The notes: generated by a model not told the origin, from the letters alone. DNA of 64,000 nucleotides from an uncultured Bacteroidota bacterium (GCA_900696575.1 CAADHD010000027.1:1-64000), one strand, 5' to 3'. Numbered from the stretch's first letter, positions 19,401 to 26,105 are shown. Made by a program: numbers and translations.

Positions 19401-20294
19401 ATGGCTAAAGCTAAAAAGAAACCATCTGCTGCTAAAAAAGCGACAAAAAAACCTGTAAAAAAGGCAGCTAAAAAACCGAAACCGGTTGTAAAGAAGGCGG
19501 CTAAACCGGCAAAAAAGAAAATTGCTAAACCAGTACTTAAAAAGGTAAAGCCTGTTAAAAAGGCTGTAAAACCCGCTGCAAAAAAAGTAACAAAGAAGCC
19601 CGTAAAACCGGTAAAGCCCGCTAAGGTGGTTGCTAAAAAAGAAGCAAAACCTGAAAAGAAAAAAGCCTTAGCACCAAATGCAGAACCGAAAAATGGAATG
19701 TTGACCAAAACTACTGCCGGACTTGCTGATGCTCCACGCAGAAGAGGCAGAAAACCAAATCCAAAACCGGAGAATGAAAAATCTTCTCAACCAAGAATTT
19801 TTGATGTGGTATATGTGCCGGTTGAACCTAAACCAAAACCGGCTCCTACTTTTATCCCTATGCGCCAGATGCCTGATGTGAAGTTACCTGAAAAAAAATC
19901 TTCCGCTTCATCTGCAGGCAAAACCCGTTATTCTGATAAAGAGCTTCAGGAGTTCAAGCAGTTGGTTGAGCGTAAATTAGCCGATGCCCGTGTTGAACTT
20001 GATAACTTGCAGGCTGCTTTAGTCAACTTGAATGAGCATGGTACTGACGATACCGGTACACATTTTAAAATGCTTGAAGACGGATCAGAAGCTTTGGCAA
20101 AGGAAGAAGCCGGTCAACTTGCAATTCGCCAGCGCAAGTATGTTGAGCAATTGGAAAATGCTCTGAAAAGAATCGAAAATAAAACGTATGGCATTTGCCG
20201 CGTAACCGGCAACCTGATTCCTAAAGAAAGACTGCTGGCAGTGCCGCATACTACTCAAAGCATTGAAGCAAAAATGAAGCAATACGGAAATTAA
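19401..20294 (+). CDS. DksA/TraR-type protein with histone H1-like lysine-rich N-terminus
   Basis: A 297-residue protein in two parts. Residues 1 to about 95 are almost entirely K, A, P and V, like histone H1 tails, followed by an AT-hook-like RRRGRKPNPKP. Residues about 170-297 are a DksA/TraR fold: a coiled-coil hairpin and a C-terminal globule ending YGICRVTGNLIPKERL. The zinc ribbon is degenerate: only one cysteine remains and the second pair is missing. DksA-type proteins bind the RNA polymerase secondary channel; the tail suggests that this one also binds nucleic acid. It lies between ileS and lspA, an order I recall from other Bacteroidota. The repetitive tail produces a long antisense open frame that is not a gene. 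Confidence 0.85.
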   Translation: MAKAKKKPSAAKKATKKPVKKAAKKPKPVVKKAAKPAKKKIAKPVLKKVKPVKKAVKPAAKKVTKKPVKPVKPAKVVAKKEAKPEKKKALAPNAEPKNGMLTKTTAGLADAPRRRGRKPNPKPENEKSSQPRIFDVVYVPVEPKPKPAPTFIPMRQMPDVKLPEKKSSASSAGKTRYSDKELQEFKQLVERKLADARVELDNLQAALVNLNEHGTDDTGTHFKMLEDGSEALAKEEAGQLAIRQRKYVEQLENALKRIENKTYGICRVTGNLIPKERLLAVPHTTQSIEAKMKQYGN

Positions 20295-20324: not shown

Positions 20325-20990
20325 TTGTCTTTAAGTCCCTCTTTCCGTAAGCCGTTGCTGATTATCGGCCTCATATTATTGGCCGATCAGCTCCTGAAGT
20401 TTTATATCAAAACTTCCATGATGCTCGGACAGGAGCATCATATTGCCGATTGGTTTATCATTCATTTTACCGAAAACAACGGAATGGCTTTCGGATTTGA
20501 GTTTGAAGGTGAATTTGGAAAACTATCCCTGACTCTTTTCAGAATTGCAGCGTTGATTGCTATAGGTTTTTACCTTTTCCGCTCAGCAAGAAAAAATTCA
20601 AACCCAAAACTGATTACAGCTTTGTCATTCGTTTTTGCCGGAGCCATGGGCAACATTATTGACTGTGTTTTTTACGGAAAGATTTTTTCTTCAAGTCAAT
20701 ACCAGATCGCATCCCTGTTTCCTGCCGAAGGCGGTTATGCTTCATGGCTGCACGGTAAAGTTGTGGATATGTTTTACTTCCCTATTATTCAGACCACATT
20801 ACCCGGCTGGATTCCATTCTGGGGAGGCGAGTATTTTGTTTTCTTCCGTCCGGTATTTAACCTTGCCGATGCTTCCATTTCCATAGGGGTGGCGTTTATG
20901 CTGCTCTTTCAGAAACAGATTTTTCATCATGAGAAAGGGGAGGAGCAGAAAAAAAGCGTAACGGATGCCGCGGCCCCCGAACAACATTAA
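20325..20990 (+). CDS. lspA: Lipoprotein signal peptidase (signal peptidase II)
   Basis: A 221-residue inner-membrane aspartic protease that cleaves prolipoproteins ahead of the lipidated cysteine. Motifs are DQLLKFYIK in TM1, NNGMAFGF, GAMGNIIDCVFYG, GKVVDMF and FNLADASISIG. D148 and D182 should be the catalytic pair. The roughly 15-residue insertion between them is usual for Bacteroidota. The start is TTG: the first ATG (20418) would remove the first helix and the conserved DQ. It begins 30 bases after the dksA-like gene and ends one base short of the convergent plsY stop. Many lipoproteins in this window would be its substrates. Confidence 0.92.
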   Translation: MSLSPSFRKPLLIIGLILLADQLLKFYIKTSMMLGQEHHIADWFIIHFTENNGMAFGFEFEGEFGKLSLTLFRIAALIAIGFYLFRSARKNSNPKLITALSFVFAGAMGNIIDCVFYGKIFSSSQYQIASLFPAEGGYASWLHGKVVDMFYFPIIQTTLPGWIPFWGGEYFVFFRPVFNLADASISIGVAFMLLFQKQIFHHEKGEEQKKSVTDAAAPEQH

Positions 20991-20991
20991 T

Positions 20992-21630
20992 TTATTTTTT
21001 CTTCCCTGCCAGAAAAGCAACCTTTGATTCTTTACCTCTGAGCAGCCGCTCAATGTTTTTCTGATGGGTGGTTAATACCAGAATGGAAACTGCCATTGAG
21101 AAAAGATTTACTGTCGGGAGTGTTTCTTTGTAAATAAGCATAACGATAAACGGAAATGCCAGCGCAGCAACCATAGAGCCCAGAGAAACATAATGAGTGA
21201 TGAGCAACATCACAGTAAAAATTCCGGCACACCATAACGCAGCCCACGGATGAATGGCAATCAGTACACCTAACAGGGTAGCTACTCCTTTTCCTCCGCG
21301 AAAACCGGCAAAAACCGGAAACACATGCCCTGCCAGTGCGCTGATGCCAAGAGCTAATTCAAAATTTATAAGCTGCTGCGAATGGGGAAGATATAGACCC
21401 GACAGCCAGGCAATTTTTACAGCCAGCCAGCCTTTGGCAATATCCAGAATCAGAACCGGCAATCCGGCTTTCCACCCCAAAACACGGAAAGTATTGGTAG
21501 CTCCTGCATTCCCGCTTCCGTATTCGCGTACATCTGTTCCATAAAAAAATTTACCCATCCAGACTGCCGATGGCACTGAGCCTAAAAGGTAGGCCACAAT
21601 TAATGCAAGGGTGTTTGCCGGGGTAATCAA
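20992..21630 (-). CDS. plsY: Glycerol-3-phosphate acyltransferase PlsY
   Basis: A 212-residue polytopic acyltransferase that uses acyl-phosphate to make lysophosphatidate, the first step of phospholipid synthesis. Conserved motifs are GSVPSAVWMGK, GSGNAGATNTFR and FRGGKGVATLLG. The start is TTG at 21630, 6 bases after the stop of the upstream large gene; the next ATG lies inside the GSVPSAVWMGK motif and would lose TM1. The tight spacing suggests translation coupled to that large gene. The partner plsX is not in the window. Confidence 0.93.
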   Translation of the reverse strand: MITPANTLALIVAYLLGSVPSAVWMGKFFYGTDVREYGSGNAGATNTFRVLGWKAGLPVLILDIAKGWLAVKIAWLSGLYLPHSQQLINFELALGISALAGHVFPVFAGFRGGKGVATLLGVLIAIHPWAALWCAGIFTVMLLITHYVSLGSMVAALAFPFIVMLIYKETLPTVNLFSMAVSILVLTTHQKNIERLLRGKESKVAFLAGKKK

Positions 21631-21636
21631 GCGTTG

Positions 21637-24600
21637 TTAATTTTCTTCGGTGAATTTTTTTACAAACTCATTTTTCTTGCGCTCTGTTGAGAGCATATAC
21701 TGATATGGCGCTTTGTTATCCTTCTCCTTGGCCACCCGTTTTTCTTCTTTCGTGTTACTGATGATGTCATTGTATTTGGTTTCTGATGAGATGGACTGCA
21801 TCACTCCGCGGGCATAATTGAAATAGTACCATGTAGATGGGTCGGTTTCAAAATAAAAATTGAATACATCACCCGATTTTCTTTTTTGTATTTCAAGATA
21901 TCCTTTTACCATACGGCTTATGGACTGTTTGTTAATGATGCCTATTCCGATGTTGCCGGTTGATTTGTAAGACTGCGTCTGTTTATCCCAGTACATTTTG
22001 ATTTCGGGCAACACTAAGGAATGCTGCAGTTCCTCCGGAATTTTTTTCACTGAACCATACAGGCTCATATCTGCAATAAGTTTATCGCCTTTTGCTTTTC
22101 CTAAAATTTCTGTGATGGCTTTATGATATACCGGACGGTTGTCAGTTGTTCCGCTGAGTGAAGGGTTGAACAGGATTTGGTCAGCCATGGTTTTCAACGC
22201 GTCTTCAGAAAACATAAAATCAAGATCCATGAACAAATCAAACTTCAATGAATCGCGGTAATAATCATGCTCAATGTTTCCGATGGCCTTCATAACAAAC
22301 TGTCCGAAGTCGGCTCCGAAATCAACCTTGCCTTCTCCGCTGACAAGGCATTTGTTATCAGTAAGGGTGATGCTGTTACCTGAAATTAATCCGGTTTTTT
22401 CATCAGCAAGCGGAGCAATGCTATAGGTACTGTTCTGCGGATTGTATTTCAGAAATCCTTCTGCTGTCATCAGGTCTTTATCCGATGAGCGTTTTTTCGG
22501 AGAGAGAAAAGTTGAATATACATTGAGTGAATCGGTTGACATGCTTATAGAAACCGTAAGTTTTTCTTTTGTTTCGCTAACCGGATTCACCACCGGTATG
22601 TTTACTCCGGCAGGGTCAATTTCAGAAGCAAATGAAAACCAGTATTTATCCAGTGCATCACAGCCGTGATTTAACCGGGCTAATCCGGAGAAGTAAAGCA
22701 GTTTGCTGGCCGCATGCAGCGTAACTTTGCCTTTGTATTGAATGTTGGGGCTGAGTGAAAAGTTCATGGTATCAGGAATTTCGCCATTGGCAAATGTTTG
22801 TCCTGAAGTATCAATACTGATTAAAGGCAAACGGATAAGGTGTTTCACTTTAGCCATATCGGTGTAGCTGTAATCGCCCATACCGGAATATTTTTTTCTT
22901 CCGGCTATGTTGATGGTTGCATTCAGCATGGTGTGGTACTTGGTAGAAGTGTTGGCAATTACTTTAGCATTCCTTAGTGTCTGCATTCGCGCTTCTTTTT
23001 CAACCACTACATTCCCTTCGTCAGGAATTACAGAGGCATCGGCCACCAGAATTTGCTTTACGCCTTTGGTGCGGATGTTGTAATCAGTCAGGCTGTAATT
23101 TGCTTCAGGAGCAAAGAACCGCAGAGAATCCTGGGCCGGATGAACCGAAACAAATTCCGCACCTTCTACATTCATTTTTGTTTTTCCCGCTGAAGCTAAG
23201 AACTGAATATCCTTCCGGTCGAAGTACCATTTAAACTGTTCAATAAAACAGATGTACTGGTTAACAGGAAAATTGACATACGAACCGCTGCCGTTGGAAC
23301 TGAATTCGCCCTCGCGTTTATCAAGGTCAATTTTTGTTCTCATGTTTTTAGTGGTAAGTGCAAGGGCTTTGTCAATATCCGAGTTGAGTTTAAAATCGGC
23401 AGTATCGGCCCCGAAAACCGTTTGCTTCAGATAAAACTGATTGGATAAAAGTTCTGCCTGATCGAACAGGATTCTGCCATTGGCATCCACCCCTTTGTTG
23501 GAAAGTACAAGGTTGCCATCGAGCGCGGCTTTGCGATCATACAAATCCATATTCGAAGTTTTTTTGAAAACAAACATTTTATCCTCCTTAGGCCTCCAGT
23601 TGATGTAAACATCTTTTGCTTTTACATCGGGATAAGCAGTATTCCCTACAGTTCGTTTTTGCAGTTCAAACACAGTGGCATCATAGTTGGCCGAATCGGG
23701 AAAGAAAGTAATGTCGTTGGAAACGGAGGTAGAAGCTAAATAATCTATCTTTCCTTTTCCTCTCAAACCTTTATGGCTGAGTTGCAGCTTTTCATAAAAT
23801 GTTCCTTTTCCGTTGTAGGCAAGCAGGCCTTCGGCCGGAGTCATGCGTGAAAATCCAAGCGATAAATCCTGCTGAATGACCAGGGTTTCACGCATGGGGG
23901 TAAAAATATCGGCAGAATTAAAAACTCCGTTAAAGGCAATTCCTTCGCGGCTGTAATTATCGAGGCTGTCAAGAGTAAAGGGATCAAGCTTGAAATAAAA
24001 ATTACTTTTTCTGTAAATCGAATCAAAAATATGTTTGTACTCATAATATACATACGATTCTTTAGTACTGTTAAAAACCGGGAAGGAAGGGCTGGGGCGG
24101 AAACTTGATTTGTTGTTTTCCGAATCAATAAGCAAATCACCGGTAAGATGTTCAATAACGCTGCGTACCGGAATTTTAACCTTCTGTCCATTCTGATCCG
24201 GTTCATCTCCCGGAACACGCAGCCGGAGGGAGTCAACATTCTGCAAACTGATTTTGAATTTCTCATAATTAAACACAAAATCATTTCCGAAAAAATCAAG
24301 ATGTCCGGCACGCACGCGGCCACTGCATATAAAATTACGGTTGGCTTTCAATAGCAGTTCCTGATCCTTTGGGACAACATACACCTGCTGCGAATCGCTG
24401 AGCATCACTTGCGAAACGCCCCGCATGGTAATATCAAAGTTGAGCAGGTTGATGGTGGCATTTGGTTTAGCAGAGATAAGCGAGTTGAAGGCTATGATGT
24501 CATAATCTAATTTACCAACGCTGGCTTTCAGATAAAAATTCACTTTGTCTTTCAATACAGCTTTTCCTTCTTCGGCATCATAGCTAAGGAACCCTTCATT

Positions 24601-26085
24601 GGAAAGATCAATAAAGAGATTCCGGATTTGTGTTTCGCTTATTTTCCAGGCTGCGGCAAGGTCGGATGCATAAATGGCGCGTGCCCCTGTAAGTTCTGCA
24701 TATTTCCTGATGCGGTAAAGCGGATGCTCATCATTCAATCCCTGCAGTTTCCGGTATCGTTGTTCGCGAAAGTAATTGACCGATTCAAAAGCCATTTTGC
24801 TTTCGGCACCGCCCGATACCATTTTGATATGAATCTGCGGGTCGCGCACTTTCCAGACAATGGCATCGCAGAACATATCCACATCATGATAGGTGTTGTA
24901 AAACGGGCTGTTGCTGTTGCTCTGTGTATTACGAAGAATGGTTACTTCTTCTTCGCGGGTCAGGTATTTGAATTCAATATCGCTGTGAAAGATGGAATCG
25001 GTTTTGCCGTCATGCTCCCAGTAAATGATCATGGAAGCACGGTCAGAGGAAACTCGCTCCGGACGTACCACAAAACTTTTTGAAGAGAGTACCATCAGCG
25101 GTTTATTCTGATACCGGAAAATCAATTTAGCATCGCCATCAGCCGTGCCTGAACCAATCATGCGTGAGCCATGCAATGAAAATCCTCCTTTAAAATCGGC
25201 TGCCGGAATCAAATCTTTAATCTGCTGATTGAGCGAATAAGAGCGGAAGCGTGGGTAAGTGGCGTTTTCAACGGTAGTATTGGCAAGAAGCTTATCCGTC
25301 AGTTTGCCTTGCATCGGCTCAGGGAAAATCATGCGGTAGTAAAATGTAACGGTATCTGCCGAATATTCCGAACCGGCAAGATTGATTTGGTACCGCTTCA
25401 GTTGAGCATACACATCGGCAGCAGGAAGACCTGCCCGTTCCCAGGAAACACGGCCTCCATTACCGTAAAACATTTTGAGCGAGGGATAATAAACCCCCTT
25501 GGCATTCTGTATTTGCAGGCTGTCATTTTTTGCACTGCAAATAAGAGTCATTTCTCCGAATGTAATTTTAGGAAGAGTGTCGAAACCGAATGTGTAAGAA
25601 GAGGTACTGCTGCTCCAGCGTACATTGGCTGATTCATAAAGTACATTTTGCTGAAAAAGGCCGGTGCATACTTCTAAGTAGTCGCTGAATCTGCGTACGC
25701 TGCCTTGCAACATTCGCCCCATGCTTGCATGCCATTGTTTGAAATTTTCTGCCGGCTGATTGCTCTTTACAAATCCGGTAAGTGCCTGCATGTACATGAC
25801 AAAGTCAGGAAATGCTTTCAGTCTTTTCTTCAGCATGGCATTGCTGTTTTCATACACAAGTTCTTTTTGTGCAGATGACAGTGCTCCCGAATTCCAGAAC
25901 GGTATAAATTCTTTCATCAGCTTCTCTGTTTCTTTCTGATTGGTTTCTGAAAGAAACTTCTGCAGGTCGCTGATAAACCCGGTTTCAGTAGCAGTAAAAT
26001 TTTTTATGGATTGAGCGCTGGCTGAAAACGCTGAAAGTAAAAAAGCTGCTAAGCAGAGAGCCTTAAGTTCATAAATCAGTTTCAT
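21637..26085 (-). CDS. Very large secreted/periplasmic protein of unknown function
   Basis: A protein of 1,482 residues with a cleavable signal peptide (MKLIYELKALCLAAFLLSAFSASAQ). I cannot assign a family. An alpha-helical region covers about 30-160. A short winged-helix-like stretch lies near 470-510 (LAAAWKISETQIRNLFIDLS). Most of the rest is beta-rich with recurring G-x-G and T-x-D-N patterns, like repeated beta-strand layers. Two related blocks are visible: MRGVSQVMLSDSQ from residue 555 and TKGVKQILVADAS from 1007 (numbering from the TTG at 26088), which suggests an internal duplication. The C-terminus is charged and has no T9SS sorting signature. Start: the open frame begins at TTG 26088 but ATG 26085 is adjacent and better. 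It precedes plsY by 6 bases. Confidence 0.8.
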   Translation of the reverse strand: MKLIYELKALCLAAFLLSAFSASAQSIKNFTATETGFISDLQKFLSETNQKETEKLMKEFIPFWNSGALSSAQKELVYENSNAMLKKRLKAFPDFVMYMQALTGFVKSNQPAENFKQWHASMGRMLQGSVRRFSDYLEVCTGLFQQNVLYESANVRWSSSTSSYTFGFDTLPKITFGEMTLICSAKNDSLQIQNAKGVYYPSLKMFYGNGGRVSWERAGLPAADVYAQLKRYQINLAGSEYSADTVTFYYRMIFPEPMQGKLTDKLLANTTVENATYPRFRSYSLNQQIKDLIPAADFKGGFSLHGSRMIGSGTADGDAKLIFRYQNKPLMVLSSKSFVVRPERVSSDRASMIIYWEHDGKTDSIFHSDIEFKYLTREEEVTILRNTQSNSNSPFYNTYHDVDMFCDAIVWKVRDPQIHIKMVSGGAESKMAFESVNYFREQRYRKLQGLNDEHPLYRIRKYAELTGARAIYASDLAAAWKISETQIRNLFIDLSNEGFLSYDAEEGKAVLKDKVNFYLKASVGKLDYDIIAFNSLISAKPNATINLLNFDITMRGVSQVMLSDSQQVYVVPKDQELLLKANRNFICSGRVRAGHLDFFGNDFVFNYEKFKISLQNVDSLRLRVPGDEPDQNGQKVKIPVRSVIEHLTGDLLIDSENNKSSFRPSPSFPVFNSTKESYVYYEYKHIFDSIYRKSNFYFKLDPFTLDSLDNYSREGIAFNGVFNSADIFTPMRETLVIQQDLSLGFSRMTPAEGLLAYNGKGTFYEKLQLSHKGLRGKGKIDYLASTSVSNDITFFPDSANYDATVFELQKRTVGNTAYPDVKAKDVYINWRPKEDKMFVFKKTSNMDLYDRKAALDGNLVLSNKGVDANGRILFDQAELLSNQFYLKQTVFGADTADFKLNSDIDKALALTTKNMRTKIDLDKREGEFSSNGSGSYVNFPVNQYICFIEQFKWYFDRKDIQFLASAGKTKMNVEGAEFVSVHPAQDSLRFFAPEANYSLTDYNIRTKGVKQILVADASVIPDEGNVVVEKEARMQTLRNAKVIANTSTKYHTMLNATINIAGRKKYSGMGDYSYTDMAKVKHLIRLPLISIDTSGQTFANGEIPDTMNFSLSPNIQYKGKVTLHAASKLLYFSGLARLNHGCDALDKYWFSFASEIDPAGVNIPVVNPVSETKEKLTVSISMSTDSLNVYSTFLSPKKRSSDKDLMTAEGFLKYNPQNSTYSIAPLADEKTGLISGNSITLTDNKCLVSGEGKVDFGADFGQFVMKAIGNIEHDYYRDSLKFDLFMDLDFMFSEDALKTMADQILFNPSLSGTTDNRPVYHKAITEILGKAKGDKLIADMSLYGSVKKIPEELQHSLVLPEIKMYWDKQTQSYKSTGNIGIGIINKQSISRMVKGYLEIQKRKSGDVFNFYFETDPSTWYYFNYARGVMQSISSETKYNDIISNTKEEKRVAKEKDNKAPYQYMLSTERKKNEFVKKFTEEN

Positions 26086-26105
26086 CAAATGGCAAACGTG
26101 ATGGC

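Follow-up and report, generated by a model that had tools for sequence, protein, structure and literature searches.

The window analysed here comprises 64,000 nucleotides from an uncultured Bacteroidota bacterium (GCA_900696575.1, CAADHD010000027.1:1-64000). Its minus strand encodes a large exported protein at 21637–26085, and plsY lies 3′ of this gene on the same strand after a gap of 6 bases. The open reading frame (21637–26088) reaches a TTG start immediately before the ATG at 26085; residue numbers in the list of parts count the TTG as 1, and the positions of the two short motif blocks (residues 554 and 1006) follow ATG numbering.

21637–26085 (−): gene for the exported beta-rich protein, 1,482 codons from the ATG or 1,483 from the TTG at 26088
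26014–26085 (−): signal peptide (Sec/SPI), cleaved before the conserved Gln26 (sequence, conservation and the Q-rule, PMC5837995)
25648–25986 (−): predicted N-terminal all-helical domain, six helices, residues 35–147 (DSSP of the AlphaFold2 model)
24340–25389 (−): first copy of the internal beta repeat, residues 234–583, with a winged helix inserted (profile–profile alignment, model)
24508–24765 (−): winged-helix insert, residues 442–527 (Pfam, profile, Foldseek)
24394–24426 (−): motif block 1 of the initial annotation, MRGVSQVMLSD
22993–23751 (−): second copy of the internal beta repeat, residues 780–1032 (profile–profile alignment, models)
23038–23070 (−): motif block 2 of the initial annotation, TKGVKQILVAD
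22207–22992 (−): predicted additional beta strands, residues 1033–1294 (AlphaFold2 model)
21640–22206 (−): predicted C-terminal part with three helices, a six-stranded sheet and a lysine-rich helical tail (AlphaFold2 model)
20992–21630 (−): plsY, acyl-phosphate glycerol-3-phosphate acyltransferase (TIGR00023, E 9e-58)

Gene, family and genomic surroundings

The gene encodes a large, unnamed, conserved and exported protein of environmental Bacteroidota. It is real: a single copy is present in the genome from which the window comes, and the gene recurs in 60 of 61 close genomes (spanning 41 of 42 genera, mostly near full length) but in just 14 of 395 Bacteroidota genomes sampled phylum-wide, homologue counts being taken from samples of genomes. 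The initial annotation had recognised no family, and database searches agreed: the top Pfam match of the protein (GMC_oxred_C, E 0.12) fell under the cut-off and was dismissed as chance, and both NCBIfam and a phmmer search of the PDB with the protein sequence returned zero matches. The family was not described in any paper found by searches of the open-licence literature. A profile built from 39 members recovered the same 14 phylum genomes and only three short, weak extra matches, so the edges of the family are sharp; the three lie outside it, one (L185) being a TPR-like protein that matches the helical part and the others (L186 and L187) stretches of ~60 residues. Scanning of named genomes yielded 457 confirmed relatives; the 80 kept came mainly from environmental Bacteroidota and included one named isolate, Acidiluteibacter ferrifornacis (L164). 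Zero matches to the gene were found in a plasmid collection. The dN to the nearest relative was 0.17, and dN/dS between relatives was not computable because synonymous sites were saturated. In two assemblies (L146 and L166), the gene appears as two adjoining open reading frames, reflecting a frameshift or an assembly error, and a bin titled Verrucomicrobia bacterium SAT140 (L139) contains the whole Bacteroidota gene cluster and is probably misnamed.

The plsY gene had been placed 6 bases away by the initial annotation, which the TIGR00023 match bears out. In a survey of 120 loci with the gene, plsY came next after it in 60 of 114, prmA lay directly upstream in 80 of 114 and tpiA was second upstream in 43 of 105; genes for DUF1599, DoxX/MauE-type and ABC permease proteins recurred farther upstream. 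Adjacency to plsY and prmA occurred in both of the clades that diverge at the base of the family tree (a fast-method tree with long branches and a midpoint root) and was repeatedly lost (19 and 18 changes), and the order tpiA–prmA–gene–plsY therefore looks ancestral. The synteny with plsY, which the initial annotation suggested checking, thus persists in about half of the loci but carries little functional meaning, because the cluster also contains the housekeeping genes tpiA and prmA, which have no envelope role. We did not take plsY adjacency as proof of function, prmA being the more conserved neighbour.

Immediately after the gene, or after plsY, 37 loci encode a large TPR–PD40 protein (with SPOR domains in some cases), always on the same strand (L164:10645-16356, L088:12630-16412, L073:12099-17570 and 34 others). 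This protein is a possible envelope partner; a relative is encoded elsewhere in the window's genome. Other contigs of this genome encode TamB, AsmA, an LptA-like OstA_2 protein, LptD and LptC, which makes the protein studied here an additional one. No linkage of the gene to lpt genes was seen: the LptA-like, LptC and LptD genes of its own genome sit on other contigs, and the neighbours in the locus survey are prmA, tpiA and plsY. In two related genomes (G419:C9, locus L085, and G422:C11, locus L039), an LptA-like OstA_2 gene lies ~10 kb from the gene. Beyond plsY in the window, the envelope gene lspA (20325–20990 (+)) converges on plsY (20992–21630 (−)) with ends one base apart, and the gene at 19401–20294 (+) encodes a DksA/TraR-type zinc-finger protein whose long N-terminal tail is rich in Lys, Ala and Pro and resembles histone H1.

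Export signal, internal duplication and predicted anatomy

The protein begins with a signal peptide, as initially annotated, whose cleavage site reads ...SAFSASA|Q. The Gln after this site did not vary among 17 relatives and reached at least 90% conservation in a set of 39, consistent with the Q-rule for Bacteroidetes, in which Gln follows the cleavage site of signal peptidase I substrates (PMC5837995). The protein should therefore be soluble and exported, and neither a lipoprotein nor membrane-anchored.

Two motif blocks reported at residues 555 and 1007 were recovered within one residue of those positions (554 and 1006). Across 20,000 shuffles of the protein sequence the block pattern was never matched, a result that excludes only an effect of composition, the pattern having been derived from these two sites. 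Profile–profile alignment of residues 150–740 (winged helix removed) with residues 741–1180 gave a probability of 95.3 (E 2.2e-8) and paired residues 234–583 with 780–1032, whereas the signal was gone when the columns of one side were reversed (E 0.35). By these alignments, the two blocks are parts of a longer, genuine internal duplication. The pairing spans residues 234–583, and the winged helix therefore sits within the first copy; the second copy carries, at roughly the equivalent position, a loop (residues 967–974 of the window's protein), the sole very-low-confidence stretch of the models. Four of 17 relatives gave a Pfam TFIIE_alpha match to the winged helix (best E 9.7e-5), with weaker matches to other winged-helix families; profile matches to TFE and SmtB and Foldseek matches to MarR/ArsR-type regulators (probability 0.96–0.99) agreed, and all 120 homologues checked kept the insert.

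AlphaFold2 was run on two overlapping parts (residues 26–1125 and 430–1483, 66 sequences each, taken from the window and its related loci) and gave mean pLDDT values of 88.7 and 88.9, and pTM values of 0.59 and 0.55, respectively, the latter as expected of an extended or modular chain. In the DSSP order, six helices extend to residue 147 and strands begin at 149, the winged helix occupies residues ~442–527 and strands continue to ~1290, after which come three helices, a sheet of six strands and a helical tail. The helical N terminus, winged helix and beta-rich remainder of the initial annotation were all present in these models, and the N-terminal helical domain was occupied in nearly all homologues. 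The initial annotation had named unrelated globular domains or an enzyme fold, together with a non-conserved plsY neighbour, as what would speak against its idea of lipid handling; this combination was not found.

Comparison with Lpt, AsmA/TamB and other beta structures

Foldseek comparison with the PDB matched both AlphaFold2 models to LptC, LptA and LptH with probabilities of 0.99–1.00, TM scores of 0.5–0.7 (normalized by targets of 125–175 residues) and rmsd values mostly of 3–4 Å, but with E-values of just 0.02–0.2. LptC (4b54) gave TM 0.70–0.71 at 3.5–3.7 Å with both models, and LptA gave 0.61–0.64, also with both, so that the predicted structures match the Lpt beta-jellyroll fold (TM up to 0.71). 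Given the near-equal LptC scores, the LptC/LptA-like jellyroll is probably within the part shared by the models (residues 430–1125), where a ladder of short strands in the second copy (~909–1030) is a candidate for this module. Matches with lower E-values (LptD, Teneurin and DDB1) had rmsd values of ~38–53 Å and were not real superpositions. ApoB100, LPD-3 and giant-virus chorein/VPS13-like proteins were weak long-range matches and, like the matched LptD, are lipid-binding beta structures; the lists also held unrelated beta-rich proteins (Teneurin, DDB1, DPP4 and ushers), with beta-propellers and ushers reaching a probability of ~0.2 at most.

Polar/apolar alternation, a rough sign of single-layer sheets, was z 3.1 above shuffles over the whole chain, compared with ~6 for the genome's TamB and AsmA, 4.4 for LptD, −0.1 for OstA_2 and at most 1.6 for other window proteins longer than 430 residues; because OstA_2 lacks it, the measure does not define Lpt folds. 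The mean face difference of predicted strands was 2.28 (1.50 when shuffled), and several long strands showed no alternation and were not very apolar.

The protein resembles LptC, LptA and LptH in being periplasmic and in having at least one predicted module of their fold, but it is about ten times larger, with several modules per chain, a winged-helix insert and helical ends, and true LptA-like, LptC and LptD genes are separate in the same genome. No OstA or LptC domain was matched by Pfam in the protein or its 17 relatives. Short DS[LV] motifs recur in both this protein and OstA_2 (PF13100), the Bacteroidota LptA-like protein, by sequence inspection only, whereas hhalign against the genome's OstA_2 protein gave a probability of ~1 or less, equal to the reversed control; direct homology to OstA_2 was accordingly rejected. 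The long beta structure predicted by AlphaFold2 invites comparison with the beta-taco of AsmA/TamB proteins, and the size is near that of the genome's TamB (1,493 codons), with long amphipathic beta structure predicted in this protein as in that group. The likeness to AsmA/TamB drawn by the initial annotation did not hold beyond this: by the alignment, a signal peptide is cleaved off where AsmA/TamB proteins have an inner-membrane anchor, no AsmA or TamB domain was matched in the protein or 17 relatives, strand alternation is weaker, and the genome has its true TamB and AsmA genes on other contigs. Likeness to VPS13/chorein bridge-like proteins and ApoB100 extends to weak long-range structural matches (probability ≤~0.5, rmsd >20 Å), with no Pfam chorein domain. 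By the features tested, the protein is not a member of AsmA/TamB, and by sequence it is not one of OstA/LptC; it may work like either.

Proposed role and alternatives

The passage of phospholipids and lipopolysaccharide (LPS) across the periplasm is currently being elucidated mainly in Escherichia coli, where AsmA-like proteins are phospholipid bridges and Lpt is the LPS bridge. In Bacteroidota, TamB/TamL is the sole such system studied in the literature found (PMC12045153). We give about an even chance to the reading that the present protein carries or bridges lipids in the periplasm by means of a beta groove assembled from Lpt-type modules. In this scheme, Sec would export the protein and, once the signal peptide was removed, a long soluble rod would remain in the periplasm. 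Most of the rod would form an open or half-open beta groove made of two tandem Lpt-type beta-jellyroll modules and extra strands, and partner proteins at both membranes would dock onto the winged helix of the first copy and onto the helical ends. As in LptC–LptA–LptD, the groove would let acyl chains slide along it, whether those of a phospholipid or those of lipid A in LPS, and the outer membrane would thereby be supplied by one more carrier or bridge. Of this scheme, the gene, its export signal, the duplication and the conservation are observed and the Lpt-like beta modules are predicted; we infer the groove, its lipid cargo, the bridging, the partners and the direction of transport.

Points in favour of the carrier are the Lpt matches, the long-range matches to lipid-binding structures, the alternation (z 3.1), export without a membrane anchor, plsY in 60/114 loci, the TPR–PD40–SPOR-type neighbour in 37 loci and the single copy in 60/61 close genomes. 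Points against it are the E-values of the Lpt matches (0.02–0.2), the pTM values (0.55–0.59), the lack of OstA_2 profile similarity, the long strands without alternation, the tpiA and prmA neighbours and the absence from most sampled Bacteroidota. The lipid-handling or envelope-bridging idea of the initial annotation is thus supported in part, in that the predicted fold matches lipid-carrying beta-grooves, but these are of the Lpt jellyroll kind and not of the AsmA/TamB kind.

The main rival is that the protein scaffolds or otherwise aids the assembly of outer-membrane proteins or surface lipoproteins, in which case beta edges would hold client strands, as has been proposed for TamB and for GspN in lipoprotein transport, the winged helix and helical ends would bind partners, and the cargo would not be lipid. 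Long amphipathic beta structure with helical and winged-helix docking modules would suit such a role, as would the TPR- and SPOR-domain neighbour present at 37 loci. For TamB-type proteins, functions in protein as well as lipid handling are under discussion (PMC11014939), and in type II secretion GspN acts for lipoproteins (PMC12802150). However, the domain-scale structural matches are to lipid-carrying LptA and LptC and not to chaperones, and no client or barrel partner gene is linked, leaving this role unlikely. Those same matches could instead arise by chance between beta-rich folds, the protein being a structural, adhesive or ligand-binding envelope beta protein without a groove, as the presence of Teneurin, DDB1, DPP4 and ushers among the matches and the LptA/LptC E-values, not significant alone, would allow. 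We consider this quite improbable, since many independent LptA, LptC and LptH structures recur with both models at 0.99–1.00 over nearly the whole target domain, whereas beta-propellers and ushers score far lower.

If the jellyroll matches are taken at face value, the protein could also be an accessory part of the Lpt machine that offers LPS or some other glycolipid a further or alternative slide through the periplasm, with which the LptA-like gene ~10 kb away in two related genomes would agree. Against this, the genome already has LptA-like, LptC and LptD proteins, all encoded on other contigs, the sequence profiles show no relation to OstA_2, and most Bacteroidota lack the protein, so LPS export does not need it; an accessory Lpt role is therefore decidedly improbable. 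A more specific form of the carrier reading, an undescribed single-chain inter-membrane lipid bridge of Bacteroidota that has duplicated Lpt-type jellyrolls, docks through its winged helix, differs from the Lpt machine as well as from AsmA/TamB and was ancestrally co-encoded with plsY, is a tentative proposal that we hold to be possible but doubtful.

On the basis of the predicted structures, the protein may be an undescribed lipid carrier between both membranes. If so, it would represent a further kind of beta-groove protein, in which Lpt-like modules are joined in one soluble chain, and hence a new route or carrier. Even without a lipid cargo, it is a conserved, unnamed envelope protein of ~1,500 residues with a real internal duplication.
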